A stretch of DNA of 64,000 nucleotides from Brachionus manjavacas (taxonomy: Eukaryota; Rotifera; Eurotatoria; Ploima; Brachionidae). The notes beneath the pieces are model-generated. The model saw only the letters and a list, made by a program, of their open reading frames with translations. It had not been told where the DNA came from and did not search any database. Every line of letters starts with the position of its first letter. The stretch's first letter is position 1. Shown in pieces: positions 42,802 through 61,268 of the stretch. The DNA lies in NCBI GenBank assembly GCA_019054805.1, contig JAHQIY010000011.1, positions 625,001 through 689,000 of the forward strand, given 5' to 3'. The position numbers and the translations under genes were made by a program.

Positions 42802-45384
42802 GCCACTTATAAGCCAGACGATGTTCAAAGAACTTTAAGCTCCGAATTAAAGGCAATCAAATTGGACGTTTGCATAACAGGTAACTTACTGAGAATAAAT
42901 GGTCTTGTAGACGGTAGACCAGTTAAGTTCGCTATAGACAGCGGATGCACAAGCTCTATTATTTCAAGCAAAACTGTAAATAATTTTGGATTAAGAATTT
43001 TACCATCCAGTTCGAAAATTAAAACAGTTGATAATACAATAAGCATGGTTGTCGGCAAAACAGAAAAAATAAATCTGGACATTCGGGGTCATGTATGCTT
43101 TATGGAGTTTTTGATAATAGACAACGAGGGTAACGATTGACTTCTAGGTCTCGATTGGTTTATGCAAACAGTTGCTAGTCTAAATCCTAGTTAAAAATTG
43201 ATAAAATTTCCTAGCGATTTAATCTTGATGAACTCGGATGAAGACGAAATGGACACACTGCTCACGGAAGAAGCGTGTAGTACCAAATTCGCTGATGATT
43301 TTGAACTGTCCGAGGACGAATGGCCTCTAGAAAAATCAAAAACTAAATTCGTTATTAAACCACAAGAGGACCTAAAAGATAATGATTTCAACCACTTTAG
43401 GCAAGCTATTAATGCTCTAAAAGATAGATTCGCAGCAGGAGTAAGTCATCTTAAAAAATCTAATGTCGACAAGCATTTCATTAAGCTAACGGAATACACA
43501 CCAATCTTTATCAGACCATACAGAAAGTCTGTTATGGAAAGAGTATATATTGGGAAAGAAGTTCAGTCCATGCTCGAAAAAGATATCATTGAAGAATCAA
43601 GCTCACCGTGGTCGGCACCAGATGTCTTGATGCCCAAAAAGGACGGCTCATAAAGATTTTGTGTCGATTACAGAGAGTGAAACCATAAGACGGTTACTGA
43701 AATTGGCCTCTTCCAAGAATTGACGACATTCTCAGACGTTTAAGTGGCTCAGTATATTTCTCCACACTTGACTTGACGTCTGGCTACTGACAAGTAGAAA
43801 TGCACCCAAATTCAAAGGATAAAACAGCATTCTCCACTCCAGACGGATATTACCAATTGAAAAGGTTACCTTTTGGATTAAAAAATGCCCCAGCTAAATT
43901 CAGCAGATTAATGCACAGGTTATTTGGCAATAAAATGTTTGTAGATGTATACCTTGACGATATCATTATTCACTCGAAAGCAATAGAAGAACATCTAGAG
44001 CATCTGATAGAAGTAGGAAACATTCTTAGAAAAGCAGAACTTAAGGTAAAACCAAACAAATGCACTTAGTTCGCCAAAAAAGTAAAGGTTCTTGGTCATT
44101 TTGTATCAAGATCCACAGTAGAAATGGATCCAGCTAAACTTGAGACTATCAATAAAAGAATAGCTCCCAAAAATGTTAAGCATGTTCAATGTTTCATAGG
44201 TTTATGTGGTTATTATAGAATTTTTGTAAAAGATTTTGCGAAAATTGCAAAAACATTGAACGACATAGTAAAAAAAGATGTTAAATTTGAATGGGGAAAA
44301 CCTCAACATGAATCGTTCGAAAATCTAAAATTGATCATGACGTCAGAACCTGTCCTTAGACAACCTGATTGGAAACGAAAATTTATACTTCATTGCGACG
44401 CTTCAGGCTATTGGATTGGCGCTATTCTAGCACAAATTGTTGCAAAATGGAAACGAATATGTATGCACTTACGCGTCACGACTACTCAAAGGTGCCGAAA
44501 TTCATTACAGCAGCACTAAAAGAGAATATTGGCAGTTATGTCAGCAATTAAAGAATTTCGCAACGAGCTGTATGGATTCAAATTTCTAGTGAATACGGAT
44601 CACTACACGTTGATGTGGCTTATGAACTTCAATGAACCTACGGGAAAATAAGCCCGTTGGGCTATCTATTCACAAGCTTATTACTTTGAGATAGTCCAAA
44701 GGAAAGGAACCCAACATTTAAACGCGGATGCTGTTAGTCGGCCAGTGCTTTAACTAAAAACTATTACTGATAACGATTATATTGACACAACTGCACGTAA
44801 AAGTCTTGATGTCTATGTAGATGATATCAAGACTTTATTTTCCAAAAAATGGTCGATTTCAAAATGGATTGTCCAAAAAGCAAATTAAAAGAATTAAGAA
44901 AGCAGCAACTCAGTATTACAACGATAGAGAAAAAGATAAAATTTTTAAAATGGGACGAGATAATATATCACGCTTGGTACCAAAACCTAGTAACAGAAGC
45001 GGTATTATTTTAAAAGCACATTTTTTGGGTCATTTTCAAGTAGTGTCAACAACAAAACGAATTAAAGAGGATTACTTTTGGAAAGACTTGGAAAAAAACA
45101 TTGAAGCTTTTGTACAAAGTTGCGAAGTGTGTAAGAGAAATAATTTAGCCCCTGCAAAGGAACATCCTGCGAAAGCAATTACCATTAATGGTGTCTTTGA
45201 TAGAATCGGAAAAGATTTGGTATTTAGCATACCAGTAACAGAGGAAGGCTTCACTGGAATAATGGTAATTACCGAATACTTAACCAAGTTCCCATATGCC
45301 GAACTTATAAAAAGTAAATCAGACGAACAAATTGCTAATATTTTATGGAAATTCATATGTACAGCGCTTCTGAAAAAATCGTAA
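42796..45384 (+). pseudogene. Gypsy element 1 pol: protease, RT, RNase H, integrase start
   Basis: Retropepsin: VKFAIDSGCTSSIIS (DSG near 42930) and LLGLDWF. RT: SMLEKDIIEESSSPWSAPDV, RLPFGLKNAPAKFSRLMHRL and VYLDDIIIHS (catalytic YxDD, about 43950). RNase H: ILHCDASGYWIGAILAQ. Integrase: HHCC finger (KAHFLGHF...CEVCKRN, about 45015-45150) and the first part of the core (GIMVITEYLTKFPYAELIKS). About eight stops or frame changes are present, several at Trp codons. The core is cut at about 45384 by the giant TIR element, and about 100 codons (second Asp and Glu) are absent on the far side as well. Confidence 0.88.
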
Positions 45385-45392
45385 CGCAGTTC

Positions 45393-45650
45393 GGTCGGCC
45401 GGCACGGCCTCGGCCATTTTGTCGGCCCGGCCTTTCGATGGCGTCGGCGCGGCCGGCCTAGTCGGCCAAGTTGATCGGCCATGTCAGCCAAATTGTTCGG
45501 CCATGTCGACCAAGTTGTTCGGCTATATCGGCGATTTCGGCCAAGGGTTTCGGCCATGTCGGCCAAGTTGTTCGGCCATGTCGGCCATGGTTTTCGGCCA
45601 TGTCGGCCATGGTTTTCGGCCATGTCGGCCATGGTTTTCGGCCATGTCTA
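45393..45650. repeat. CGGCC minisatellite, left end
   Basis: Tandem variants of TCGGCCATGTCGGCCA with units of about 20-30 bases, such as three copies of CATGTCGGCCATGGTTTTCGG near 45590-45640. It is strongly GC-rich against an AT-rich background. The right end (59612-59735) has a shorter, differently arranged array. Confidence 0.85.
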
Positions 45651-45849
45651 CCATTTCACATTTTATTAAAACTTTAATATTTTTATCTTAAAATTTTTTT
45701 TTAATTCAAAAAATTTTAATTACTTTTGTTAATTTAATTTTGATACCGCTATTAAATTTTAAATTTTAAATTTTATTCGTGGAGTGTTTTACTCTTTTTT
45801 GTATCTTCAAATAAAATTTAATTTTCCAAATTTATTCTTATTTTTTTAT

Positions 45850-46092
45850 TTAAGCCAACTCTTCAGAGCAATAAATGAATTTTTTTTCTTTTTTTTCCTT
45901 AAGCAAAGAAATTAAAAATTTTTTATTTTTAGCTCGATTTGTCAGCAACACAGTCTGCCATTCCACTCGTCTGATCATGTCCACTATTTCAGACAACCAG
46001 TTCGAACCATCCGACTCATATAACTTTCTCAGTGAACCCGCCCAAACCATCCGAGTCATCACTTTCTCAATCAACCCGTCCGACCCCTCCAA
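45850..46092 (-). other. ORF within left TIR
   Basis: An 80-codon frame reading outward. It ends VEWQTVLLTNRAKNKKFLIS, then Lys-rich residues and a stop. The same frame, 74 codons or more, is at 59186-59410 on the plus strand in the right arm. The complementary strand is also open, so coding status is uncertain. The N-terminal part is made of the 39-base repeats (SDGLIEKV units). Confidence 0.3.
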
Positions 46093-46604
46093 CTCATCAT
46101 TAAAAAAAATTTTTTAACTTTAATTGTTTTTTAAATAAAGAAAAAAATTAAAGTTACTTTTCAATTTTATTTATTTAGAAATATACAAAAAGAAATTAAA
46201 GAACAATACACTGTTTCCATTGAAATTTTGCCCTTTTATATTTTATTTAAAAAAAGAGGGTTCAACTTAATTTTTATATCAAAATAAAGGTTTTTTACTC
46301 ATCTTTCGGCAAAATTATCTAATTTTTTTAGATTTCCAAAAAAATGTCAATTTTGGCAAGATGAAAATCTACATTTTTTCATAATAAACTTTACAATTTT
46401 ACTTGCAAGCAGTCGTTGTTTCTTTTTTTTCTTGGTGAAAAAGAATAATTCTCTATTAAGGATTTATTTTGCTTAGAATTGAATTAAATAACAATTTAAA
46501 AATAATAAAAAATATCTTTTGATAAAAGTTATGTAATTTTTAAATAAAAATTCAGATTAAAGATGCAGAAAACTTAATGAACCTTATTAAATACTTAAAA
46601 TCTT

Positions 46605-47457
46605 ATTTTATATTTATTTAATTTATTTTTAAAAAACAATGATTTATTTTATTTGGGATGATATTCATGATTTGAAAAATTTTTTTATCTAAATGATTAT
46701 TTCCCTTTAAAGGCTTTACCAAAATAAAAAGGTAAATAATTTAAAGTATTTTGGATTATCAATAATTTACTTATTTTTGATCATAAATTTTTTTTCATCA
46801 ATTATCGACTACTTTTTAAAAAGAAATAAAAATGAAAAAAAATGAATTTAAACCAGTAACGCAGAGGAAAGCAAAAGCAATTAAAAATTTAATATAATCT
46901 AAAATATTTAAACTTTTTGTTAAGTTTTATTTTGTTTCATTTGTCAATATTCATTTTGAAATATTATTTTCAATTTATTTTTTCCATATTAATGATTTAA
47001 AATTAATAAAAAATTATAGCATACATCTCAAGAAAAATTTTTTTAATTGTTTATTGAAACAAAATTTTCAAAAATGATTAGTCATTTTAAAAAATGAATT
47101 TTTTGATTTTGAAATTTCAGTCAGTCTCTTTTTAACCTAGCTCAAAATTTTAATGGCCTTATGAAATCTGTTTTAAAAGAAGTTTGAACCGATTTCTTTG
47201 TATTTTGATCTTCTTTTCTAATCTATTTTTTTTACTCAAAAAGTTTCTTTAAGCTTTTCTTTACCATCCGGTTTCAACTTGTTTTTTTTCATTAATATTT
47301 CTTTTATAAAGTGAGTTCGTTCAATGCGTTTTTGGAGAAATTTTGGTCAAGTACAAAAATTGCAGCTAAAAAGTCTTCGATTTCAACGAATTTGACAGTT
47401 TCAAACTTTTTGAACAATTCTAAAAATTCAATAGATATCAGAATTGATATAAATATG
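46605..47457. other. AT-rich spacer inside giant element
   Basis: Low-complexity DNA between the left arm and the first gene. A frame opens at 47289 but has no ATG before 47458. Confidence 0.4.
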
Positions 47458-48108
47458 ATATCAATGACCAGATTTTTTATAGTTCTTTTGACTGTATTTT
47501 TAATTTGCTTATCTGTATCATTACTGAAAAAAAATTATTTTTCAAAAAAATGTAATTTCTTTTTCTAAAAGCTGAGCAATTTTTTTATTTTTAAATTAAG
47601 AACCCAAATTCAGATTTGAACTTAAGTATTGGTCAAAATGGTGTCTCACGTTTTTCAGCTGATAATCGGAATCAGATTTTGGTAATAAATTGTCTTGCAT
47701 TTTCCTTTTAAATATTTTTAAAGGGCCAGGACCAAAATGTTCCTATAATTGATCGACAGCCTTGTCTGTGCGCACAACCAAAATTTGCCAAAGCATTTTT
47801 GAGAGATCTTAACGAGGTTTTTTCAAAAATATCTTATAAAAGAATAAGCAAAATTTTTTTTAAGCTTCAATCTGCAATCGTTTCTGAAGAAGTGTATAAT
47901 CAGACAAATGACGATAGCTTCGAAGTAATTTACAAAGATAAAAAAATGGCATTTTTTTACACAATTTCATTAAAAGGATGTTTGTATTTATGAAAACCAA
48001 TATGAAAATTCTCAATTTTTAAGGGAACATTTTAAATTAGAAAAACTAAATGATACTGATTCAACCAGAACAAGAGAATTAGTTTCTCATCCTGTTTCAT
48101 GTTTCTGA
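47458..48108 (+). CDS. Putative secreted protein, three exons, giant-element cargo
   Basis: Starts with a signal-like peptide (MTRFFIVLLTVFLICLSVSL). Two further segments are spliced on with good sites. Exon 2 is 47601-47681 (NPNSDLNLSIGQNGVSRFSA) and exon 3 starts at 47724 (DQNVPIIDRQPCLCAQPKFA, then EVFSKISYKRISKIFFKLQS). The frame is open to a stop at 47991. A second frame carries YENQYENSQFLREHFKLEKL to 48108, which would follow after one indel. The exact exon 1 donor is uncertain. Unknown family; a role outside or at the surface of the cell is only inferred from the leader. Confidence 0.45.
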
Positions 48109-48376
48109 TCCATTGTTTTTGTATTAATATTTCCTTCTAACTTGTTCTGGTTAATTGTCTTTGTTGCTTTTTGTATAATTTAATTGTAAAAAATTTGCTG
48201 CGATCCATTAAAATTTTGTAAATATATTAGTTGTAATTAATATTTAATTTTTTTACTTATCAACATATATTTAAAAAATCAACATACGTCTAAATTTTTT
48301 TTTTGTTATAACGTTTAAATGTTAGTAAATAGAAAATGAATTAATAATTTGTTTATTCAAAAAAATTTTAAAAAAA

Positions 48377-51300
48377 TTAAAAACTATTGATTAAATAATA
48401 AAATGAATAACTGATGGTTGCTTTTTGAAAATAAAAATGATCTCTCTTCTTTTTCAGATTTTTTCCATATTTAGATAATTTTTTGACAGTTTTATATATG
48501 TCATCAACCACATAAAAATCATTTTTTAGCTTAAAAATTGAAACAGTATGGCCTGGTTTGTTTAAAGTTGCACAAAGAAAATTATAGTTTCTATTATCAC
48601 ATGTTATAACATCTGGTAATTCATGGATAAAAATGTTCTTCTCTGCTGATTTTATAAACAAAAATGTAGGCTGATTAAAAAATTTAACGTTGAATTCAAA
48701 AGTCAACTTGCATGACTTGCATCTTTCTTCATTTTCAGCTGATAACTTAATTTTTGAATTAGATTTTTTAAAAAGTATGACATCAGATTCTTTGGGAATA
48801 TTTCTCTCATTTTTTCACATCTTGAACAACTTTGTTGAATAAATACATACTTTTGAAATTCTTTTAAATTCTTTGAAAAATTATCTTCTTCATTATTATC
48901 AAGTGATATTTCAATAAAATTTTCAGAAAAATTTAATTTTGTATCATAGCTCATTATTTGTTTAATCCATAATTCTTTAGCTTTATCGAAATTCTTTTTA
49001 TCCACTTCATCTATAATGTCTTTTATAACTATAGTCAACTTGTTACTTATTATATTTTGAAAATAAGAAGAATTTTTTTATAAAGATACCAGAATGCTAA
49101 AAGAATATAATCAATTGAGCAAGTTTTTGAAACAAAAACGTTTTTTTCCCCTTTGTATTCAATGAAAGCTCCCCACTTTGGTATGTGATTTTTGAATGAT
49201 TCAATACTTGTTAAATCGTTTGATGATATTTCATGAGTTTGATTCAATTCCTTTTGAAGGATTTCAATTTCAATATCACTTGAATCTGAACAACTAGTAG
49301 TATATTCCGAATCACTTGAACTTTCTTTTCTACTTCTCTTTCCTTTAATATTTTTCGGTTTGTTAGGCAACTGTTGATTCTGTATATCGATAGGAATTTC
49401 GTTTAAATGTCTTCCTTTTGATATGATACCAGGTGTTCTATATTTTAAATAGCTTAAATAATAAATCACAGTTGCGACATGGCTACAGCATCCGACTATT
49501 CGACGACCTGACAAACATGTGCATATATGAGCTTAAATAAAAATTAAAATCAAAAGATTACCTAGTAAATAGTGTAAAATTTTGAATTTACCTTGAATTG
49601 ACTTCGAATGATTTAATCCAGGTATATATTTGATAAAAACTTTGTATGTATTTTTAAACTGTTTAACATAGCTGGTTTGCCCAATATCTTTTAGATTTTT
49701 TTAGATCTTCTATGACGTGAAATTATTTCAAATGCAAGGATTTTTGAATTTTCATATTCATCAGTTAAAACCCTATTTGACATATTCTTCATCAATCTTG
49801 AGCTAACAATGTAAGCTGTTTTATTAAATAAAAGGTCATCAGCGTAGGCTCTAGCTTGCTTTAACTGATATGATCCAAGAAATAACTTTCTCATCATTTG
49901 TTTTGGTCTTAGAATTGGAAAATCAACAATACTTGAAATCGAAATAGATGCTATCAATTTTGTTTCCAAATGTTTTCCTATTAAAAACTCTAATTCATTC
50001 TTGGTTATTTTTGATTTTCTAATCATTCTTCGCGCAATTTTTTTTCCATGATTTCCATCAGGGGAACAACTAATATGGCTGAAATTAATCATTGCTGATG
50101 CTATTCGATAGTCAATTTGAATATGACCAATAGCTGTATTTCGAACATTTTCTAAAGCCCTAAATTTTTTAATTTCGCCGATTTTTTTTTCAACTATGAA
50201 TCGACACTTAATTAATCAAATAAAATTTTAATAAAAAACATAATTTAATTTACCTTTGTTACCATTCGTGTTTCATTAGCCTGTTTGGTAGAAAGCTGTT
50301 TAGATTTTAAATTAGACTCATCCAAATCATTATTTAAAAACTGCTGACAAGTTGGAATTTTTACATCAAAATCGTATTTTTCTCTAAGTTGTAATACGAC
50401 ATCTCTAAATCCTTTTAAATAAATCTTTTATTTTTAACAATTCACATAATAAAATTCTTTAGTGCAAATTATAAATTTTTACAAACCTCTATCGAGAAAG
50501 ATAATTGTTTTTCCAGGAAGAAGAATCTTTTCTTTTAGAGCTAAGTCTGTCTTCAATATATATTCAAATATACAAGCATCGTTCATATTTGCAGAAAATG
50601 ATCCATAACAGTCAATAATATATCCATCACTACAGCATATAATAAAAGGCTTAAGTAATGATGTTGATTTTTGAACACTCCAACTTTTATACTGGAAGTT
50701 ATTATTCTGACTTTTTTCAATGCGAGTATAGGTACCATCACAAACAATAACAAGTTCTTCATTCTTAATTGATAGAAGTTCTGTTACCATTTCATTGTTG
50801 TGTTTCAAAAAAAATTCTCTTTTTCTATCAGCTCCAAGAAAAAATGGAACAAAATCATCGTTTATTGCCTTTCGTATTTGAGACAAGTATTTACTAATGG
50901 CTTGTTGAGAACATCCCTTTTTAAAAATTTTAGCAAGTACTGATTGGTTTGTTCCTGTTCTTAACCAGTATCGATAAAGAGCAATCAGCTGTTCTTTCGA
51001 ACGATTTTTACTATTTTTTATGCTAGTGATGAATTTAGAAAAGTCTAAAAATTGTTTTTTTGTCCAACCTGTAATTTCAATACAATGTGAGTCTTGAACA
51101 GAAGAAATATCTTTAAATTTTTCAAACACACTTTTTTCACCGACTTCAAACATATCAAACATTTTTATTAATTGATTCTTATAATTTTTTTTTTGTACGA
51201 ATTTGACCATAAAGTTCCTCTTTAATACAACCATTATTATCAAGATGGTTTCTGCAGCATCTTGCATTTTCATCAATAATTATTCTTTTCATTTTGAATG

Positions 51301-51418
51301 CATGAATAATTGAATTTTTATTAATTGTTCGCAGTTTAATCCTATCAGAACGCTTCCGTCTACAAATAAAACAGCAATTATGCGAATTTATAGCTGTTTC
51401 TATCTTTTTCGTGGACAT
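48377..51418 (-). CDS. DDE transposase with SWIM finger and USP-like protease
   Basis: Long gene with introns at 50412-50486, 50207-50253 and 49532-49591 (75, 47 and 60 bases). N-terminus: a Cys pair (CCFICRR...CCRNH). HTH-like stretch: QQAISKYLSQIRKAI. Transposase core of the DDE_Tnp_4 type (Harbinger/ISL2EU-like): LVIVCDGTYTRI (first Asp), FSANMNDACIFEYIL and FLDRGFRDVV (second), and TRMVTKCRFIVEKKIGE (Glu). Then a SWIM zinc finger, CTCLSGRRIVGCCSHVATV. Last, a USP-like protease: SKTCSIDYILLAFWYL (Cys), two CxxC pairs (CSRC, CKSC), NKPGHTVSIFKL (His) and FYVVDD (Asp). Four frame breaks, all at homopolymers: A10 51185-51194, A7 49696-49702, A7 49073-49079 and A6 48810-48815. Probably one protein of about 950 residues. 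Confidence 0.75.
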
Positions 51419-51564
51419 TTTAATTTATTTTTTTATCTAAAAAATGAAGATTGAGTTCTTAAAAATTTCATAAAAATAATATTTTGTGTTATTATCGATT
51501 AGAGTGATATAATAAATATAGTTTAAACTTTTATTTGAAAAAAATACAAAAAAAATTGAAAAAT

Positions 51565-52356
51565 CTACTTTGATTTTTTGGTTTCATTAACTTTTTTTAT
51601 CTGACATTTTACTCTTGATTCTTCTGTTAAAACTTTAATACAAATGTAAATTATGCACAGTTTTGTATAAATAGATTTCACTGTAAGAAGACAAGCTCCG
51701 ATAAACACTAGATCCTAAATAGATAACAAATTTTAAATTCAAATCTTCAAATAAAAAAATACTTTTAATCCAACAAAATAAAAAATTCTGTTTTTTTCTT
51801 CATCGTATAATCCAAATGAGAACATAAGCCAACAAGCGAACTCATTATTTTTAAATAAGAGCCATTCAATTGTCTCTTCTACATTTTTTATGTCGCTAAT
51901 TGCTATTGTTTCCCTAATTATAATTAGAACTTGTTCTTCATTTATTTTAAACCTAACAAAAGAAATTAGAGTAAGAAAATTAAAATTTACTGCAATCAAA
52001 AAATTACCTTTTAATTTTTTGACATGTTTCTGAATTTTTTGATGGTAAAATAAAATGCCTCCATCCCGTGGATAAAAACCAATCTGAGAATCGCCAAAAA
52101 TAATTGGTAGATATTTGTCGAAACAATTCAATGAATGATTTGGAGATATTGAAAATTCAATAATTTTTAGGCAACGAAGTTTATCATCACATGCCACAGC
52201 GTTGCTTACACCATGAAAAGTGTTTGGAGGAAAATGACTAGAAAATGTTTCAGTGTTTACATTTTTTTTATTAGAAATTATATGGGCAGATGATAAAGTT
52301 TTACTTTTTTTGAAATTTAAACAAAATAAAAAAAGAAAAAAAATATATAATTGCAT
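51565..52356 (-). CDS. Putative membrane protein, giant-element cargo
   Basis: Starts MQLYIFFLFLFCLNFKKS, a signal-like leader. A luminal or extracellular domain of about 170 residues follows (NTFHGVSNAVACDDKLRCLK, FGDSQIGFYPRDGGILFYHQ). The C-terminus is hydrophobic once the last intron (51715-51762) is removed: DLVFIGACLLTV then LCIIYICIKVL. A second GT...AG pair (51953-52007, 55 bases) lies in the open frame. Removing it keeps the frame only if the T6 run at 52015-52020 is one base short. No family recognised. It lies 147 bases from the transposase gene, same strand. Confidence 0.5.
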
Positions 52357-52470
52357 CTCCTTTTAGATTTTGTTTGAAAAAAAATTATTTTACTACAACT
52401 TTTTTATCGAAATAAAAAAATATTATATTTTTAAGAATATCTTTTTTGAATCAAGTTTCAGCGAAAATTC

Positions 52471-53215
52471 TTACTTTTTAACATAAAAAATCGATATTGA
52501 CCTCAATAAAGATTTTTATACTAAAAAAACTTATTTTAAGGCAGAAAACATATCTTTAAAAAAGATAAAAATTATAGTTTTTTCTTCCAAATTCTATTTT
52601 TTTAACATAAAAAATCGATATTGACCTCAATAAAGATTTTTATACTAAAAAAAACTTATTTTAAGGCAGAAAACATATCTTTAAAAAAGATAAAAATTAT
52701 AGTTTTTTCTTCCAAATTCTATTTTTTTAACATAAAAAATCGATATTGACCTCAATAAAGATTTTTATACTAAAAAAACTTATTTTAAGGCAGAAAACAT
52801 ATCTTTAAAAAAGATAAAAATTATAGTTTTTTCTTCCAAATTCTATATTTTTAACATAAAAAATCGATATTGACCTCAATAAAGATTTTTATACTAAAAA
52901 AACTTATTTTAAGGCAGAAAACATATCTTTAGAAAAGATAAAAATTATAGTTTTTTCTTCCAAATTCTATTTTTTTAACATAAAAAATCGATATTGACCT
53001 CAATAAAGATTTTTATACTAAAAAAACTTATTTTAAGGCAGAAAACATATCTTTAAAAAAGATAAAAATTATAGTTTTTTCTTCCAAATTCTATTTTTTT
53101 AACATAAAAAATCGATATTGACCTCAATAAAGATTTTTATACTAAAAAACTTATTTTAAGGCAGAAAACATATCTTTAGAAAAGATAAAAATTATGGTTT
53201 TTTCTTCCAAATTCT
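52471..53215. repeat. 124-bp satellite, six copies
   Basis: Six tandem units of 124-125 bases; TCGATATTGACCTC starts at 52491, 52615, 52740, 52864, 52988 and 53112. Units are nearly identical, differing mostly in A or T run length and a few single bases (for example TTTAAAAAAG versus TTTAGAAAAG). Each holds the short hairpin ATCTTTAAAAAAGAT. It lies between the membrane protein and the homeodomain-like gene, inside the giant element. Confidence 0.95.
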
Positions 53216-53315
53216 ATATCTTTTACCTTAAAAATTTTTTCTTGTCGTTAGTATTTTAATTTTAGATTTTTTTGATATAATTATTATTCCAATATTTTAT
53301 TTTAATCTTTTTATC

Positions 53316-53890
53316 TTGATGTTTAAGATTATTTTTAAAATGGCATTAATTCGTTATTCAAACATTTTACTCACTTCACTTAGAGCTTCAGCTAACTTAA
53401 GCTGGAGATTTTCTACCAATGCTTTTAAAATGTTTTTTAATTCTTCGAAAGTCTCTTTTCGAAGTTTATCGAAAGTTTTCAATACATTTATCAATAAAAA
53501 ACAGTCCAAGAAAAATGATAATCAGCCTATTAAGAAAAATTCAAAAAAACGAATAAATTTTAAAAATCGCAGGATTCTTTACGATGCACTCATATACCAA
53601 AAAGATTTTCTCGAAATGAAAAGATTCAATTAGCTAAAAAAACAAATTTGTCGGTCCGTCAAATATCAAGATGGATTTCAAATTCAAGAAATAAAAAATT
53701 TAATTCGTCTAAACGCATATCATTAAACGAAGAAATAAAACTGAATGAATTTTTTGAAAATGTGTGTGCATATCCACAAAAAGAACAAATATCTGAATTG
53801 GCAGAGAATCTCGAGATCACAAGAAGACAAATCAGTCAATGGTTTTACAGAAAAAGAAGAAAAGAATTAAAAAAAAATAAATCAATTTAA
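53316..53890 (+). CDS. Homeodomain-like gene, two modules
   Basis: The second half (53648-53890) carries a homeodomain-like fold: KRISLNEEIKLNEFFENVCA, ELAENLEITRRQISQWF, then YRKRRKELKK, matching helix 1 to helix 3 (W-F-x-x-[KR]-R-R). Just before it, KIQLAKKTNLSVRQISRWIS then NSRNKKF repeats the helix 2-3 pattern, so there are two adjacent modules. The first frame (53316-53633) has a Ser/Lys-rich leader and FKNRRILYDALIYQKDFL, which would be helix 1 of module one. One frame change near 53610 separates them. No intron is obvious. It is probably a DNA-binding factor of the element, or a captured host gene. Confidence 0.6.
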
Positions 53891-54990
53891 TTTTATGTAA
53901 ATTTTTTTTAAATAAATTTTTACTTGCTAAATACAATAATTAACTTTTTAAACATAGTGTATATTTTATTAGATTATTAATAGCGATAAAAAAATTTAGA
54001 GAAAAGGAAAAATATCATTTTTTTAGAATATCACTTTTATTTCAAAAAACAATGTTTAATTTTAAATTTCACTTGAATGATAAAATCTTAATTTTTGCAT
54101 CTGAACTTGGTTTTTGATTCAGGAAAATAGATGGATAAATTCGAACGAATCATCATTTTATTGGAATTTTTTATAAGATATTTAATATTCACATTTATTT
54201 AACAAAAATATAAAATTACAAATAAACAAATAAATTATTTACCATTAATGGTATTGTGAATTTAAAAAACAGAAAATAGAATAAAAAAATTTTATTTAAG
54301 GCGATAAAGTGTAACATACTTTGTTGCAGTTTGTGGCCTTATTTTTTCTAATATTTTTTATTAACTCTAATTTTGATTTATCAAAACATGATGAATTTTT
54401 TTTCTATTTGTTTTTGAAATTCACAACACCCCAAAAAATCAAATCAAATGTCAAAAAGAGCCCAAATCTGAGCTGAAGAATAAATAGGTTTTTTTTAATG
54501 TTATATTTTTGTGACATGATTTGGATTCGAATTCTTAATAAAAAAATATTATCTCTTTTTACTCATTTACATATGCAATGAATTATCAATAATCATTTGA
54601 ATTTAATAACTTTAAAAAACTTAAAAACTTTCATAATTTTATTTAACCTGCAAATCTAAGACTTATTCATTTTTTTATGCTGACTGTTTTAAGTCCTAAT
54701 GCTCCTGCAAATTAATCACAATTTTACTTGTGGTACTCTACAAATAGCACCAATTGTCATTAAAAAAGCTGACCTCGTATCCTTGAGCCACTTATTGATT
54801 AGAAAAATTTAATAATTAATATTTAATTTTTTAATCGTTTTTTATAATTGTGGTTAAAAACTATTATAAACTTTAAAAGACTTTATTCTAATTCAATTGA
54901 AGTTTTTTGTTTTGGTAGTTAAGTAGTCTCTAAAGGAAGCTGGGATAGGACCCTAAATTTTTTGAAGATCATGATATTCTCATTAGATAA
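53891..54990. other. AT-rich spacer in giant element
   Basis: About 1.1 kb without a gene that I can support. Confidence 0.4.
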
Positions 54991-55048
54991 GGCAAGCTAC
55001 ATCCCACAGAGGGACAACGTAGTAGTGGTAGCCACAAAGCCTGCTAGC

Positions 55049-55880
55049 TCCTCAGGAAGGCTTCCTAAAACAGGAGGCAACAAGACAGCTACAGCTAAGT
55101 CTCGCACTCGCTCAAAAAGCAGGATGCGGTTTTAAGGAACTAGCAAAGCTCACACCGGGGATCGATTTAGTCAACAATATCCTTTCACCCACCACTAATC
55201 ACCCTAATTATTCATTAATTCATAAGTGGAAGTTCGGTCGCCCGGTAATTAGTAAATACTTCTGGGACAAAGACACGAACATTATTAATTAATTATGGAA
55301 TTAATTAGTAATGTTCCATAATTCCTTATGGAATCGTGGAGGTACATGGACAATCCAGAAAGCTCGGAAGACGAGCTTCAAGAGCAAAATGATAAGGAAA
55401 ATGATCAAATAGGCGAGGGATCTCCAACAGCCTCCTCCACCTACTACCACCAGCTTCTTTGCAACCAGGTCGAAAGAATTTTCGCCCAGTTCGATGATTG
55501 TCAGATTCAGGCCAAGGGTCTCACAGCTCACAGCTCTATATCTAGGGAAAAGTAAAGGTGGACGCCTACTTCGCTCTACCCACAGATATCTTTCCATTAG
55601 GAATTTCCAATCACTCACGCGCTCTTTGCCAATCTACAAAACGGTCTCATGATTCGGTCGGCAGCTGGTTGCGCTCGTATTAAGAGCTATTAGCACAAAA
55701 TTAGTCCAGCGATAAGGATAAGGACTCGTGCTGGTCTCTCTTTAAAAGGCCAGAATAGTCGAATCATCCCGATATTGCGGAACGATCAAATAGGAACGAT
55801 ATTGCGGAACTTTTTTGCTGGTCTCGAGACCCAGGACGAAAGTAAGACCCATAGCGGACTTCTCTGCATTAACAAGGTCC
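55049..55880 (+). repeat. GC-richer dispersed repeat, copy B
   Basis: Inverted relative to copy A at 33391-33945, and longer at its right end (55633-55880 has no partner in copy A). A 75-codon frame at 55328-55555 (NPESSEDELQEQNDKENDQI) is open here, but the matching stretch in copy A is broken. A direct internal repeat GATATTGCGGAAC occurs twice near 55770-55810. It lies inside the giant element, so this family is still spreading or was carried by it. Identity unknown. Confidence 0.6.
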
Positions 55881-55946
55881 ATAAAATAATATTTTTCTTA
55901 TTTAAATTTTAAAAAAATTTTATTTTTTAAAGAAAAAACAATAATA

Positions 55947-56571
55947 TTACACTAATTTTTTTCTAGCATATAAACATATAAAAAAAATTAAAGTTAAAAA
56001 AATTATAACAAAGGTGATCACACAAATAACAATTTGAAAAAATCCAAAAATTCCAACATTTGTAAATAATCCTTTAAAAAAAATTTAAGTAGAGACCACC
56101 ACAATGCCCTATACTAGAAGCTATATCAGAAAAAGTAACAAGGATTGCTCTTAGAAAAGAAGGACTCTTTGAACAAAAGTCTGTGAAAAAAAAAACAAAA
56201 AAACTTAAATCTTTATACGGCAAGCACTTATTATATGCTATTTCTTGTTCAACATAGTTAACATAAACACCTTCCCCAATCAAAATTCCAAACAAACTAA
56301 AAATGACAACCATCAATGATATTAAGAATGTTTTAAGGGAAAAATATTTATTTTTAACAAGCTTGACGTCCTCAATTCGAAGATTTTTTGCAAAAGTCCT
56401 CTGATTACTATTCCATACCAGCTCTAATTTTTCTTGATTTATACTCTTAATAAATCCTATTTGAATTAATCCTTAAAAAAATTTTAAACAATATTTAATT
56501 ATAATGCATGATATTAATTTTATACCATTTGATCTTTTAAATGAAACTTTATCATTGATTTTTAAATTCAT
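55947..56571 (-). CDS. Two-TM protein, giant-element cargo
   Basis: Starts at ATG 56569-56571. Exon 1 encodes MNLKINDKVSFKRSN; a 54-base intron (56472-56525) separates it from GLIQIGFIKSINQEKLELVW, together a small Tudor- or chromo-like barrel pattern (weak). Then TM1 (FLISLMVVIFSLFGILIGEG), a Cys-containing loop (YNKCLPYKD, DFCSKS, IGHCGG) and TM2 (GFFQIVICVITFVIIFLTLI), ending Arg/Lys rich. TM2 is reached only if the A8 run at 56076-56083 (T8 in sense) is one base too long. As printed, the frame stops at 56074. Family not recognised; topology somewhat claudin- or tetraspanin-like. Confidence 0.5.
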
Positions 56572-57298
56572 TTTTTAGCTTCAGTTAAACTTTGTCTAAA
56601 ATTTTTAAAATGAATTTATATATAAATTAATTTATGTGCAATTTTTAAAAAATATGCTATGTCCAATTTAATATGTAATGCTCTATTTTCAATTGGAAAA
56701 AAATTTGATTATTGAAAAATACGAAGAAGATGACTCAAAAATTATCCTCTTTTTTAAATAGATATTTATGTAATCTTATTTAAAAACTTTTTGTAACTAA
56801 AATTATTTTTTGTTAAATGAAATAAAAATTACAACTTAAATCTTTAGAAAAATAACTCTCAAACGCTAAAATTTTCGTTGTATTCTTGAAGATTTTAAGT
56901 ATTTAATAAGGTTCATTAAGTTTTCTGCATCTTTAATCTGAATTTTTATTTAAAAATTATCTAACTTTTATCAAAAGATATTTTTTATTATTTTTAAATT
57001 GTTATTTAATTCAATTCTAAGCAAAATAAATCCTTAATAGAGAATTATTCTTTTTCACCAAGAAAAAAAAGAAACAACGACTGCTTGCAAGTAAAATTGT
57101 AAAGTTTATTATGAAAAAATGTAGATTTTCATCTTGCCAAAATTGACATTTTTTTTGGAAATCTAAAAAAATTAGATAATTTTGCCGAAAGATGAGTAAA
57201 AAACCTTTATTTTGATATAAAAATTAAGTTGAACCCTCTTTTTTTAAATAAAATATAAAAGGGCAAAATTTCAATGGAAACAGTGTATTGTTCTTTGT

Positions 57299-58580
57299 TT
57301 ATTTTTTCCTTTTTTTCTTGCGTCGACGCTGTACGCCCACATCTTCTTCCAGTCTGACACGTGTTTTAAGATACATTCTTTCATAAAAATATCTTAAAAA
57401 TAAAATTAATTCTTTAATTAATAAAGATTTAAAATAGATGTTACCTTTTATTTTTAATATTGAATTTGGAAATTCAATTTTTAAATTGTCCAGGCCTAGA
57501 TTTTTTAATCTTTCCGGAATCTCACATTCGATATATTTTATTAAAAGGTTTTTAAAATATTACCTGTGCTTATTATCCTTTAAAAAATATAAATTTAGGA
57601 ATGATTTTTTAATTTTTTTTAAAATTACTTTAAGTGATTCATCTTCAGCAAATATGTCGTCATCACTTTTATTTGATGATTCAACACTTTCTGTGCGCTG
57701 GCTCACTTTTTCAAGAGGATCTTCCGGTGCTCTTTTCTGTAGAATTTCAGAACACTTAAATTAAAAAATTAATGGATAAAATTATATATCTTTTTAACTT
57801 ACATTTATGACTTTAGGATTATGCTCTAATGAGTCAAGTTTTTTTACTCATTTCCCTCATTGTCTGCTGCATTTTTTCCATTTGATGAATTAACTTATAA
57901 AATTTATCATAAAATTTTAAATTTAAATTAAAAAATCAGAAATTACTTTTTGCTGATTAGCAAGAAAGTCACCAGCGATCCTATTTATTAGATCGTGGGA
58001 ATTTTTCCTGCTATTTTTGCTTGACCACTCCTGATCATCAGCAAAAGAAAGATTATCAAATGATTTTGATAATGTCAGCTTTCTTTTTCTTTTCCTGGTT
58101 TGATCCGATGGTCCAGCCTGAATTTCTGTCTCTGAACCTTGGGCAGAATTTTCATCCACAATTAGTTCCGATTGCTCCACAACAGCAGATTCTTGTATGC
58201 TTGGGTCGGAATTGACCTGGTGCCCGGGTCGAAATTCATCGGCCTCCATTAACACAATTCCTGGCTTTTCGCTTTGTACGGTTTTATTTAAAAGCTCAGC
58301 CAGAACTTCGAATTTTTTTTTCCGGCTGTATAAAAAAACCGAAACCATGCCATTGATTTCAAACTTTTTTAAAAAATTAAATTAAATAAATTAGCATTAA
58401 TAAAATTAATAAAATACTAACTTTTTCAAAATTTCTAAAATCTATACAGTCTTCTATTGGAATATTACAAACTGCTCCAAGATAATTTGTAATACTACTT
58501 GGAGCTTTTTCTATATTTGCCTGATTTTTCATTATGCGTACTTGAATGCAATTTTTGGTTTCATGTTTCTTTGGTGGCAT
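57299..58580 (-). CDS. Nuclear-type basic protein of nested element
   Basis: Six exons are readable. Exon 1 58580-58422 (MPPKKHETKNCIQVRIMKNQ); exon 2 from 58373 (FEINGMVSVFLYSRKKKFEV, then an acidic part and SDQTRKRKRKLTLSKSFDNL). Then LIHQMEKMQQTMREMSKK (coiled coil), an acidic exon (VSQRTESVESSNKSDDDIFA), a tiny DNKHR exon and the last exon YFYERMYLKTRVRLEEDVGV plus QRRRKKKRKK. Introns have GT...AG ends and most are about 45-60 bases. One frame change sits at the T7 run 57839-57845. Lys/Arg clusters suggest a nuclear, DNA-binding protein. No known family. Confidence 0.5.
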
Positions 58581-58734
58581 TGTTGATAATTTATTGAGAT
58601 GATATACTTTAAAAAAAAATTATTCTTTTTGACTAATAGAACTGGGTTATGTATATAGAAGAGCGCGGGGAAGGACAAATTTAAATCAAATGAAAAAGAG
58701 GCAAAGAGAAGATTTTCAATATTAAAAAAAAAAG

Positions 58735-58882
58735 TTACCATCTATTTTAAATCTTTATTAATTAAAAAATTAATTTTATTTTTAAGATATTTTTATGAAA
58801 GAATGTATCTTAAAACACGTGTCAGACTGGAAGAAGATGTGGGCGTACAGCGTCGACGCAAGAAAAAAAGGAAAAAATAAAC
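58735..58882 (+). repeat. Orphan copy of the last exon in the other TIR arm
   Basis: The plus strand of the right repeat reads the same last exon (acceptor TTTTTAAG, then YFYERMYLKTRVRLEEDVGV) facing outward into the arm of the giant element. It has no upstream exons of its own. A transcript entering from the left could splice onto it. Confidence 0.6.
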
Positions 58883-59185
58883 AAATTTAATTTTTTTCTT
58901 TATTTAAAAAACAATTAAAGTTAAAAATATTTTTTTTAATGATGATAGTTTAAAAAAAAAAAAAGATAGATAAAAAAGAAGATTTAAATAAAGAAAAAAA
59001 TTAATTTTAAAAATATTTTTTTTAATTTTTTTTTGTATATTTCTAAATAAATAAAATTGAAAAATAACTTTAATTTTTTTCTTTATTTAAAAAACAATTA
59101 AAGTTAAAAATATTTTTTTTAATGATGAGTTGGAGGGGTCGGACGGGTTGATTGAGAAAGTGATGAGTCGGAGGAGTCGGACGGG

Positions 59186-59410
59186 TTGATTGAGAAAGTG
59201 ATGACTCGGATGGTTTGGACGGGTTCACTGAGAAAGTTATATGAGTCGGATGGTTCGAACTGGTTGTCTGAAATAGTGGACATGATCAGACGAGTGGAAT
59301 GGCAGACTGTGTTGCTGACAAATCGAGCTAAAAATAAAAAATTTTTAATTTCTTTGCTTAAGGAAAAAAAAGAAAAAAAATTCATTTATTGCTCTGAAGA
59401 GTTGGCTTAA
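59186..59410 (+). other. ORF within right TIR
   Basis: Counterpart of the 45850-46092 frame, ending at the same residues (CSEELA). One Trp/Thr difference (MVWTG versus MVWAG) separates them. Preceded by three or four 39-base repeats (GGGTTGATTGAGAAAGTGAT and variants). Confidence 0.3.
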
Positions 59411-59611
59411 ATAAAAAATAAGAATAAATTTGGAAAATTAAATTTTATTTGAAGATACAAAAAAGAGTAAAACACTCCACGAATAAAATTTAAAATTTAA
59501 AATTTAATAGCGGTATCAAAATTAAATTAACAAAAGTAATTAAAATTTTTTGAATTAAAAAAAAATTTTAAGATAAAAATATTAAAGTTTTAATAAAATG
59601 TGAAATGGTAG

Positions 59612-59735
59612 ACATGGCCGAAAACCATGGCCGACATGGCCGAACCCCTTGGCCGAAATGGCCGATAAAGCCGAACAACTTGGCCGAAATCGCCGATATA
59701 GCCTAACAACTTGGCCGACATAGCCGAAATCCTCA
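59612..59735. repeat. CGGCC minisatellite, right end
   Basis: Reverse-orientation copy of the left-end array, with fewer units (about 125 bases) and a different order of variants such as TTGGCCGAAATGGCC. Confidence 0.8.
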
Positions 59736-59739
59736 CAAA

Positions 59740-60250
59740 TTAAGGCTCAAAATAATAAAAGACCTGTTACAAAGACAGTAATATCTACCGGATCAAAACG
59801 GTCTGGATCCGCATCATGGTACTGAATGGAAAATTACACCCTAATATCGTGTCCCGTTCACCGTTCTAGGTCAAACAAGAAATGGTAACTAAATTGTCGA
59901 AGATGTCTTCAAACAAAAACTTCCTGACACATATCCACTTCAGAGATTAAAATTAGATAAGTCGCCTTCTACTAACGGGGTAAAGACGAAGCTATATTTG
60001 AAGTCGAAAAAATAATAAATAATCGACTAAATAAAAAAAAAGTATGAATTTTTAGTCAAATGGAAAAACTATTTACTTAAACATAATTCTTGGGAACCTT
60101 TGGACAGTTTCTTGGGAAAGAAACCAATTGAAGATTTTTGGTCAAAAATTAAACAAACCAAAAAAAGTTGGACGACCAAGAAAAACAAATGCCAATCATG
60201 TGACATTCCGAAAATGTTGAATATTTTAATAACAATTTTATTCTTCCTCA
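59740..60250 (+). pseudogene. Gypsy element 1 pol, integrase C-terminus and chromodomain
   Basis: Resumes the pol gene beyond the giant element. PFTVLGQTRNGN and later LPDTYPLQRLKLDKSP match the GPY/F module. After the A9 run at 60033-60041 a chromodomain follows: KKYEFLVKWKNYLLKHNSWE then PLDSFLG. This identifies a chromodomain-bearing Gypsy lineage. Stops and frame changes throughout. The catalytic centre of integrase is not present on either side. Confidence 0.75.
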
Positions 60251-61268
60251 TAAAACCTTTTCAACAGTAAGAATTAACGGAAGTTTTACTGTCTGTGGAA
60301 CACCGGACCAAACTAATATTGAAAACACCCTGCCATCGGAGGAGAGTGGACTTGCTATTCAAAAAAATACTAACCATAGATGGAAATGGATACAAATGTA
60401 GTAAACAGAATATTATACTTAAGGCATACGTTAACCTGTTTGGTTCAAGAAGCTCATCTAAAAGTATTCATAAGGCGGAAATTGGTAAGAAAGAATGTGA
60501 AAATATGGTAAGTTTAAGGACATGTGAAGGATCAAAAATGTCCTGTGAGAATGATGATTGTATATTTGATGGTACGCCTAAAGAAATATTCAAGTGGCTT
60601 AACCCTGTAATGAGTTATGGATTTGTCTGTACTGCTAAGAGAGTTACCTTGAAAAGCAAATCAAACTTAATTTTCGATACCCGTGATATTAAACAATTGG
60701 AATGTAAACTTAATTCGTCATTTGTTTACTGGACTTTATATGACAATTGGTTTAAATTTACCGTTTAATAATGTTTTTAGTAATACGAATGGCGATCAGA
60801 TTTTTAAATTAAACCAAACCTTAAACGAATCTGGTATGAAACTTTATGGTTCTACGGAAGGTATATTTTTTACTTGTAATCCTACAAATTTGCCTAAAAT
60901 CAATGCTGATTTTGTAACAATTCACAACCTTATCTTGGCAGAAAGTGACGGAATCGAACTCAAAACTTATACAGCTCGAGACATTGGGTTAGAAAAATTA
61001 ATAATAAAACAATATGAATTGATAAAAATGGAATTACTTGGGTGAAATCCGATAATTTAATATCAGTAAATAGCATCACTAGTGAAGTCGAATCGTTAAA
61101 ATTCAATCATTTTATGTCGATTAATGATTTAATTAATCTAAATATAGAGCCATCGACATCTAAAAATCAAAATTTAGTTAATGAAGGTTTTGATAACTCC
61201 TATTATTATCAAGGATTACCTGTATTAGGAAAAAAACGTCGCCGACTATTCCCATTGAATCCTATTTA
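60213..61268 (+). pseudogene. Env-like third ORF of Gypsy element 1
   Basis: A leader-like hydrophobic start (about 60213-60265) and Cys-rich ectodomain-like sequence in three overlapping open pieces (60295-60768, 60683-61045, 61042-61269), each in a different frame. Cysteines are regularly placed in the first piece; the last piece ends in a basic cluster (KKRRR). A membrane anchor is not visible before the end, so the 3' part may be missing. Position after integrase suggests an envelope-like gene, but this is a weak call by layout, not by a known domain. It is broken in at least three places. Confidence 0.45.

Follow-up and report, generated by a model that had tools for sequence, protein, structure and literature searches.

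The window analysed here is a 64,000-nucleotide stretch of the rotifer Brachionus manjavacas genome (positions 625,001–689,000 of contig JAHQIY010000011.1, assembly GCA_019054805.1), which lies on contig C11 of the 114.17-Mb, 61-contig assembly that we searched. Between two Gypsy fragments it carries long inverted arms, which enclose a DDE transposase gene and four further genes in both orientations (Table 1). A preliminary description of the locus had recognized the arms, their CGGCC-type minisatellite ends and these genes, all of which are borne out by the arm alignment, the tandem arrays, the PF13359 profile match and the open frames, respectively. The 1,220-base left arm that it described is, however, a composite made of arms from two different repeats. 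We find that the mobile unit is very probably an 11.1-kb cut-and-paste DNA transposon with a Spy-like mode of insertion, nested in an older long-armed repeat.

Table 1. Features of the inner transposon and of the outer long-armed repeat, in window positions.
Feature	Position	Strand	Basis and remarks
Inner Spy-like transposon, 11,093 bp	46201–57293		15 full-length copies compared
Inner left terminal inverted repeat (TIR), 405 bases	46201–46605	+	402/406 alignment columns match right TIR
Inner right TIR	56889–57293	−	Pairs with 46201–46605; outer right end lies 2.4 kb to its right
Target half-site AAA	46198–46200	+	15/15 compared copies; single occurrence in empty sites
Target half-site TTT	57294–57296	+	15/15 compared copies; empty sites
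Gene A, small protein with hydrophobic span, in two or more pieces with uncertain exon boundaries	47296–48108	+	Open frames
Transposase, several exons	48377–51418	−	PF13359 profile; homologues; predicted fold of homologue P0002
Secreted-type protein with hydrophobic stretch at N terminus; intron sequence possibly included at its end	51739–52356	−	Relatives at diverged loci and B. calyciflorus gene models
124-bp tandem array, 6.1 units in window, between secreted-type and homeobox genes	52475–53234		Copy number varies among element copies
Double-homeodomain protein, one frame change in window copy, open in other copies	53319–53890	+	Pfam homeodomain matches
Transmembrane (TM) protein, weak Tudor-like N terminus, one short intron	55947–56571	−	Relatives at diverged loci
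First part of left arm of outer repeat, with CGGCC minisatellite and 38-bp repeats	45496–46200	+	Pairs with 59018–59730 (59021–59730 at 91–95% in main blocks); tandem arrays
Outer repeat, left arm, second part, past insertion	57294–57464	+	Pairs with 58715–58885 at 98%; contiguous with first part in empty C4 copies
Outer-repeat gene, family unassigned, several exons	57560–58619	−	Multicopy in genome, 66–97% identity
Outer repeat, right arm	58715–59730	−	Arm pairing

The inner element is present in at least 15 full-length copies, the one in the window included, at 14 sites; the copies are 10.7–11.2 kb long and carry the same gene set, and two of them on contig C26 (a and b) have common flanks and are counted as one site. 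This search scored the best 40 of 115 candidates, so that rarer combinations could be overlooked. The comparison omits the incomplete copies at C16:42452 and at C7:6115647 as well as three C24 stretches with about 93% identity; pairwise identity among the 15 copies, gaps ignored, is 99.70–99.97%. Length differences of 10 bases or more fall in the 124-bp array, except for a 171-bp loss in the C7 copy. The agreement of the TIRs (402 of 406 columns), together with the recurrence of the 11.1-kb unit at 13 other sites, excludes for this unit the chance inverted duplication that had been named as the alternative to a transposon. A search of the genome for the pattern of the TIR ends returned 47 exact ends and, at up to three mismatches, 57 and 55, against 12 and 20 for a backwards control. 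The element is recently mobile.

Its ends and target are established. All 15 copies read AAA, then GAACAATAC...GTATTGTTC, then TTT, and the sequence before insertion is preserved at two independent empty sites. The first consists of three tandem outer-repeat copies on C4, 97% identical in the core, without the insertion and counted as one site; two of them read ATATACAAAAAAAAATTAAA directly followed by TTTGTTTATTTTTTCC, the third being one A shorter, and the inner element of the window is flanked by ATATACAAAAAGAAATTAAA on the left and TTTGTTTATTTTTTCC on the right. The second is provided by the copy on C16, which lies within a satellite whose monomer is about 337 bp; when the two flanks of this copy are joined, they show 6 mismatches over 240 bases to the best empty monomers, with AAA^TTT at the join. 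Because both empty sites hold AAATTT once, the element adds GAAC...GTTC and duplicates nothing. On C26, GAT stands on both sides outside AAA and TTT, which we take as chance; by eye, no like repeat of that length was seen in the other copies.

Relatives and possible derivatives of the element occur elsewhere in the assembly. A cluster of decayed relatives with about 93% identity occupies C24:687–776 kb, and TIR-end motifs face each other in pairs at C1:11859288–11860007 (720 bp apart), C31:199339–206397 (7.1 kb), C10:138794–145233 (6.4 kb) and C6:1569631–1575114 (5.5 kb), which may be shortened or non-autonomous derivatives. The satellite forms arrays on several contigs, among them C16 (40–42, 50–51 and 62–71 kb), C48, C19, C8, C38 and C35; one Spy-like copy lies inside it. 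Within the inner element of the window, the composition deviates at about 54930–55900, possibly because of an old nested insertion, and by eye part of this segment seems to follow the TM gene in the B. plicatilis protein model P0022. Folding of one unit of the 124-bp array as DNA gave a z of −2.1; Rfam models run over 45300–59900 and a tRNA scan of the window gave no match.

The transposase comprises a Cys/His-rich N terminus, a helical region, the DDE_Tnp_4 domain, a CxC...CCSH (SWIM-like) motif and a C-terminal domain that resembles ubiquitin-specific proteases (USPs). The DDE_Tnp_4 profile (PF13359) matches one exon at 2.8e-6 and the exon-joined protein at 6.5e-15, above the cut-off, and the catalytic D, D and E columns are invariant or nearly so in the transposase alignment (A1). 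Relatives in wasps and bdelloids share about 30% identity. The structure model of the B. calyciflorus homologue P0002 matches USP chains over model residues 739–1019; the matches listed were all to this segment, so that the other domains were barely probed. The nearest C19 proteases are USPL1, CYLD and USP14, at 8–15% identity among the matches listed. The protease Cys, His and Asp are invariant in all eight domains aligned (A2), that of the window included; from this alignment P0011 was excluded as partial, and P0001, P0007 and P0010 lack most of the domain. On the basis of the model, the C terminus is predicted to adopt a USP fold nearest that of the SUMO protease USPL1, and the fused domain looks like a protease that removes ubiquitin or SUMO. 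A solved-structure search with alignment A1 gave two weak, unrelated matches only, and phage records searched with one transposase exon gave none. A distant homologue of the transposase lies at C1:123941–126622 (+), with 33% identity over residues 11–916 in a single open frame of 1,073 amino acids without stops. The B. plicatilis homologue P0001 bears the label ‘vacuolar sorting-associated 13c’ in its source, which seems to be an error.

The homeobox protein matches the profiles PF05920 (1.5e-13) and PF00046 (1.9e-13) in two stretches, and its best solved structure is CDX-1 (2.6e-4); a protein search returned none at E ≤ 0.01 among 113 candidates. Its stop-to-stop frame is at least 208 amino acids long in 7 of the 15 copies. 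Three sequences of the secreted-type protein all keep Cys57, Cys63, Cys79 and Asn74, and in each of them, by eye, Asn74 sits in an N-x-S/T motif; its structure model was unusable (pLDDT 34). The TM protein has an 86% match in B. plicatilis, which together with the relatives at diverged loci and in B. calyciflorus points to a host of the B. plicatilis group, and its N terminus compares with PF22923 at 0.0017 in the window and 8.8e-6 in B. calyciflorus P0006, both under the cut-off. Its second exon is open over 173–175 codons in 6 of the 15 copies, and the SWIM-plus-USP exon of the transposase over 385 codons in 3.

The outer repeat is about 3.3 kb long once the inner insert is removed. Its left arm, read from 45496–46200 and on through 57294–57464, pairs with 58715–59730 at 91–95% in the main blocks; as 45496–46200 and 46201–46605 pair separately, the left arm of the preliminary description is the outer arm plus the TIR of a second element. 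For the outer repeat no target duplication was recognized. The odds are about even that this repeat, too, is a transposon, of foldback-like or long-TIR type, rather than a chance inverted duplication. As in foldback elements, its long inverted arms consist partly of tandem repeats; the arms are matched over about 0.9–1.0 kb, end in minisatellites and enclose a multicopy gene, which has no Pfam match above the cut-off. Against its mobility as a two-armed unit, relatives were seen only with one arm or as a lone arm: C4 holds three tandem copies about 13.55 kb apart, each made up of the outer gene plus a single arm, and C8 an arm alone, both without the inner unit, and the arm pair was not found in the stretches examined on either contig. 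Unlike in a foldback element with cargo, the transposase and the other genes here belong to the inner element, and the outer repeat is a candidate mobile element only.

The Gypsy sequences outside both arms share one orientation, as had been described, with RNase H and the integrase H2C2 motif on the left and the chromodomain on the right, but joining them would not restore a clean empty site. The integrase lacks its middle: the left flank ends early in it and the right starts near its C terminus, as read by eye. This discontinuity also argues against the outer repeat being a transposon. Downstream of the chromodomain, an open reading frame (ORF) at 60271–60768 (+) scores 26.4 bits (cut-off 22) against PF00974, the fusion domain of the rhabdovirus spike glycoprotein, an envelope-like gene adjoining the rotifer Gypsy element.

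The assignment to a Spy-like mode follows the published division of the PHIS superfamily. PHIS groups are told apart by target and duplication, Spy inserting at AAATTT without duplication (PMC4482050), and the active element cgSpy likewise uses AAATTT and duplicates nothing (PMC11304231). The inner element shares with Spy a PHIS-type DDE transposase (DDE_Tnp_4), insertion between AAA and TTT without duplication, in 15 of 15 copies and at both empty sites, and a TIR within the published range of 5–691 bp. It resembles ISL2EU in its DDE_Tnp_4 superfamily and an AT-rich target of related form; the AT duplications and the second ORF with a YqaJ domain given for ISL2EU (PMC4482050) were both not seen, and the empty sites without AT duplication reject this group. 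Like the inner element, PIF/Harbinger and Nuwa have a second gene that encodes a DNA-binding protein of helix-turn-helix type; theirs is Myb/SANT with 3-bp duplications (PMC4482050), whereas the second DNA-binding gene here matches homeodomain profiles, and PIF/Harbinger is rejected because the 15 copies and the empty sites show no TWA target duplication. The inner element also differs from published Spy in its fused USP-like domain and in its host, a rotifer, the survey passage naming arthropods, cnidarians and molluscs. The openly licensed literature searched, as far as its text was available, yielded neither a multi-gene Spy nor a transposase that bears a USP domain, nor any Spy from a rotifer.

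Maverick/Polinton elements encode a protein-primed DNA polymerase and a retroviral-type integrase; Pfam scans of the main open frames, though not of every small one, matched neither, and judged from these frames such an identity is unlikely. Zisupton links a transposon protein with a protease of the ubiquitin/SUMO system, and the domains in Ginger and Zisupton are Ulp1-type rather than USP-type. These elements and the inner element, with its predicted USP-like domain, are alike in having a protease of this system; the superfamilies differ. For Ginger, a Ulp1 protease is reported (PMC2836005).

The element might instead belong to another PHIS lineage, either new or related to ISL2EU, in which insertion at AAA^TTT without duplication arose independently of the Spy clade; this reading is possible but less favoured. 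In its favour are the size, the five genes and the fused protease, which are unlike published Spy, and wasp and bdelloid relatives no closer than about 30%; on the other hand, the target and the lack of duplication are exactly the features that separate Spy from other groups (PMC4482050), and the wasp relatives are about 700 amino acids long, as given for Spy transposases (PMC11304231).

The four extra genes could in turn be passengers captured by chance, without a role in the life of the element, for which only the transposase and the TIRs would matter. The analysis revealed a function for none of the four, gene A was seen nowhere but in this family and in its close, decayed relatives on C24, and many frames are broken. 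We nevertheless consider this doubtful, because the TM, homeobox (opposite strand), secreted-type and transposase genes recur at diverged loci with order and orientation kept, the TM, homeobox and secreted-type genes at 32–55% protein identity. C4:1.05 Mb is the only diverged locus with all four (TM +, 1,049,861; homeodomain −, 1,052,859; secreted-type +, 1,057,939; transposase +, 1,059,133, a fragment with stops, 65%). C10 has homeodomain (−, 2,286,213, 32%), secreted-type (+, 2,287,845) and transposase (+, 2,288,844, 52%) genes; C13 has transposase (−, 3,163,205–3,166,222, 45–66%) and secreted-type (−, 3,166,605); C4:34–38 kb has TM (+, 34,991), homeodomain (−, 36,315) and secreted-type (+, 37,193); and C50 has homeodomain (+, 35,230, 55%) and TM (−, 38,294, 50%), neither with internal stops. 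The end motif AAAGAACAATACGCTATTTG, present at 21 exact places in the genome and at 0 for the control, flanks three of these loci: at C4:34,614 and C50:39,184 it is found beyond the TM gene, and at C13:3,160,934 on the side of the transposase. At C4:34,614, 87 bp align with the start of the window TIR. In B. calyciflorus, secreted-type homology is part of the same gene model as the transposase (P0006, 9.7e-14; P0010, 3.7e-6), and P0006 also has weak TM homology (0.003).

Several observations weigh against reading the locus as a Spy-like transposon with a fused protease and a working gene set. Intact Spy is described as 1,165–5,910 bp with one ORF, and the inner element has 11.1 kb and five genes inside its TIRs; its assignment, which uses target, duplication and DDE profile, is provisional. 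Many copies have interrupted reading frames, mostly where homopolymer runs differ in length, possibly through errors of assembly (the transposase frame too changes at a homopolymer run), and among the 15 copies none is shown to be intact throughout. No transposase was found in the C50 stretch where it is expected or among the matches listed at C4:34–38 kb (best 48 of 242 candidates), nor a second TIR in the C4 stretch examined around 34,614. For the protease, TM-scores are modest (at most 0.47 of target among the matches listed), the truncated B. plicatilis model P0001 has Ser at the catalytic Cys position and the partial model P0011 has Leu at the catalytic His position, and neither a Pfam scan of all eight domains nor a solved-structure profile search with the domain found a USP match by sequence.

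The single 14-kb foldback-like transposon of the preliminary description, suggested by the matched, minisatellite-ended arms that enclose all the genes, is rejected as hardly tenable, since the inner unit stands without the outer arms at 13 other sites and C4 holds the outer repeat without it, in the exact pre-insertion sequence. No second copy with the gene set between outer arms was found among the 40 scored candidates, and, as far as seen, the arms do occur apart from the gene set (C4, C8), which that description had itself counted against one unit. Its observations are therefore confirmed in part and its interpretation supported in part: extent and kind were wrong, and a mobile unit with a DDE/SWIM-like/protease-like transposase plus other genes was right.

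For the 11.1-kb transposon, blunt cut and paste into AAA^TTT fits the observed product best, and by analogy to Spy the steps may run as follows. The N-terminal regions of the transposase would bind the 405-bp TIRs, the DDE domain would make blunt cuts at both ends, and joining would take place at the midpoint of an AAATTT opened without a stagger. In the window, the element inserted into a long-armed repeat older than itself, in its left arm, and this repeat sits between two Gypsy fragments. For the remaining domains and genes we offer hypotheses. We favour, as an unproven role, that the USP-like domain strips ubiquitin or SUMO off chromatin or off the transposase itself, and so protects the enzyme or relieves silencing. 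The double-homeodomain protein may replace the extra DNA-binding protein of PIF/Harbinger, perhaps acting at the adjacent 124-bp array. The membrane and secreted-type genes travel along with the element.

Spy has been described as the simplest PHIS group, with one gene and no more than about 6 kb, and it is under development as a gene-transfer tool (PMC11304231), for which the natural cargo size of the present element is of interest. The Spy-like element reported here has five genes, has spread recently and shares a partial gene order with diverged families. We suggest, very tentatively, that it represents an undescribed, accessory-rich PHIS lineage of rotifers, whose own deubiquitinase or deSUMOylase would counter ubiquitin- or SUMO-dependent silencing or turnover, whose double-homeodomain protein would use the 124-bp array to drive transcription of the element or its transposition complex, and whose conserved secreted and membrane proteins might give it a life beyond plain cut and paste, perhaps spread between cells or individuals. 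The element opens two questions to test: whether host control is countered by a ubiquitin/SUMO-type protease that a DNA transposon itself encodes, and of what use homeodomain, membrane and secreted-type genes may be to a cut-and-paste element.

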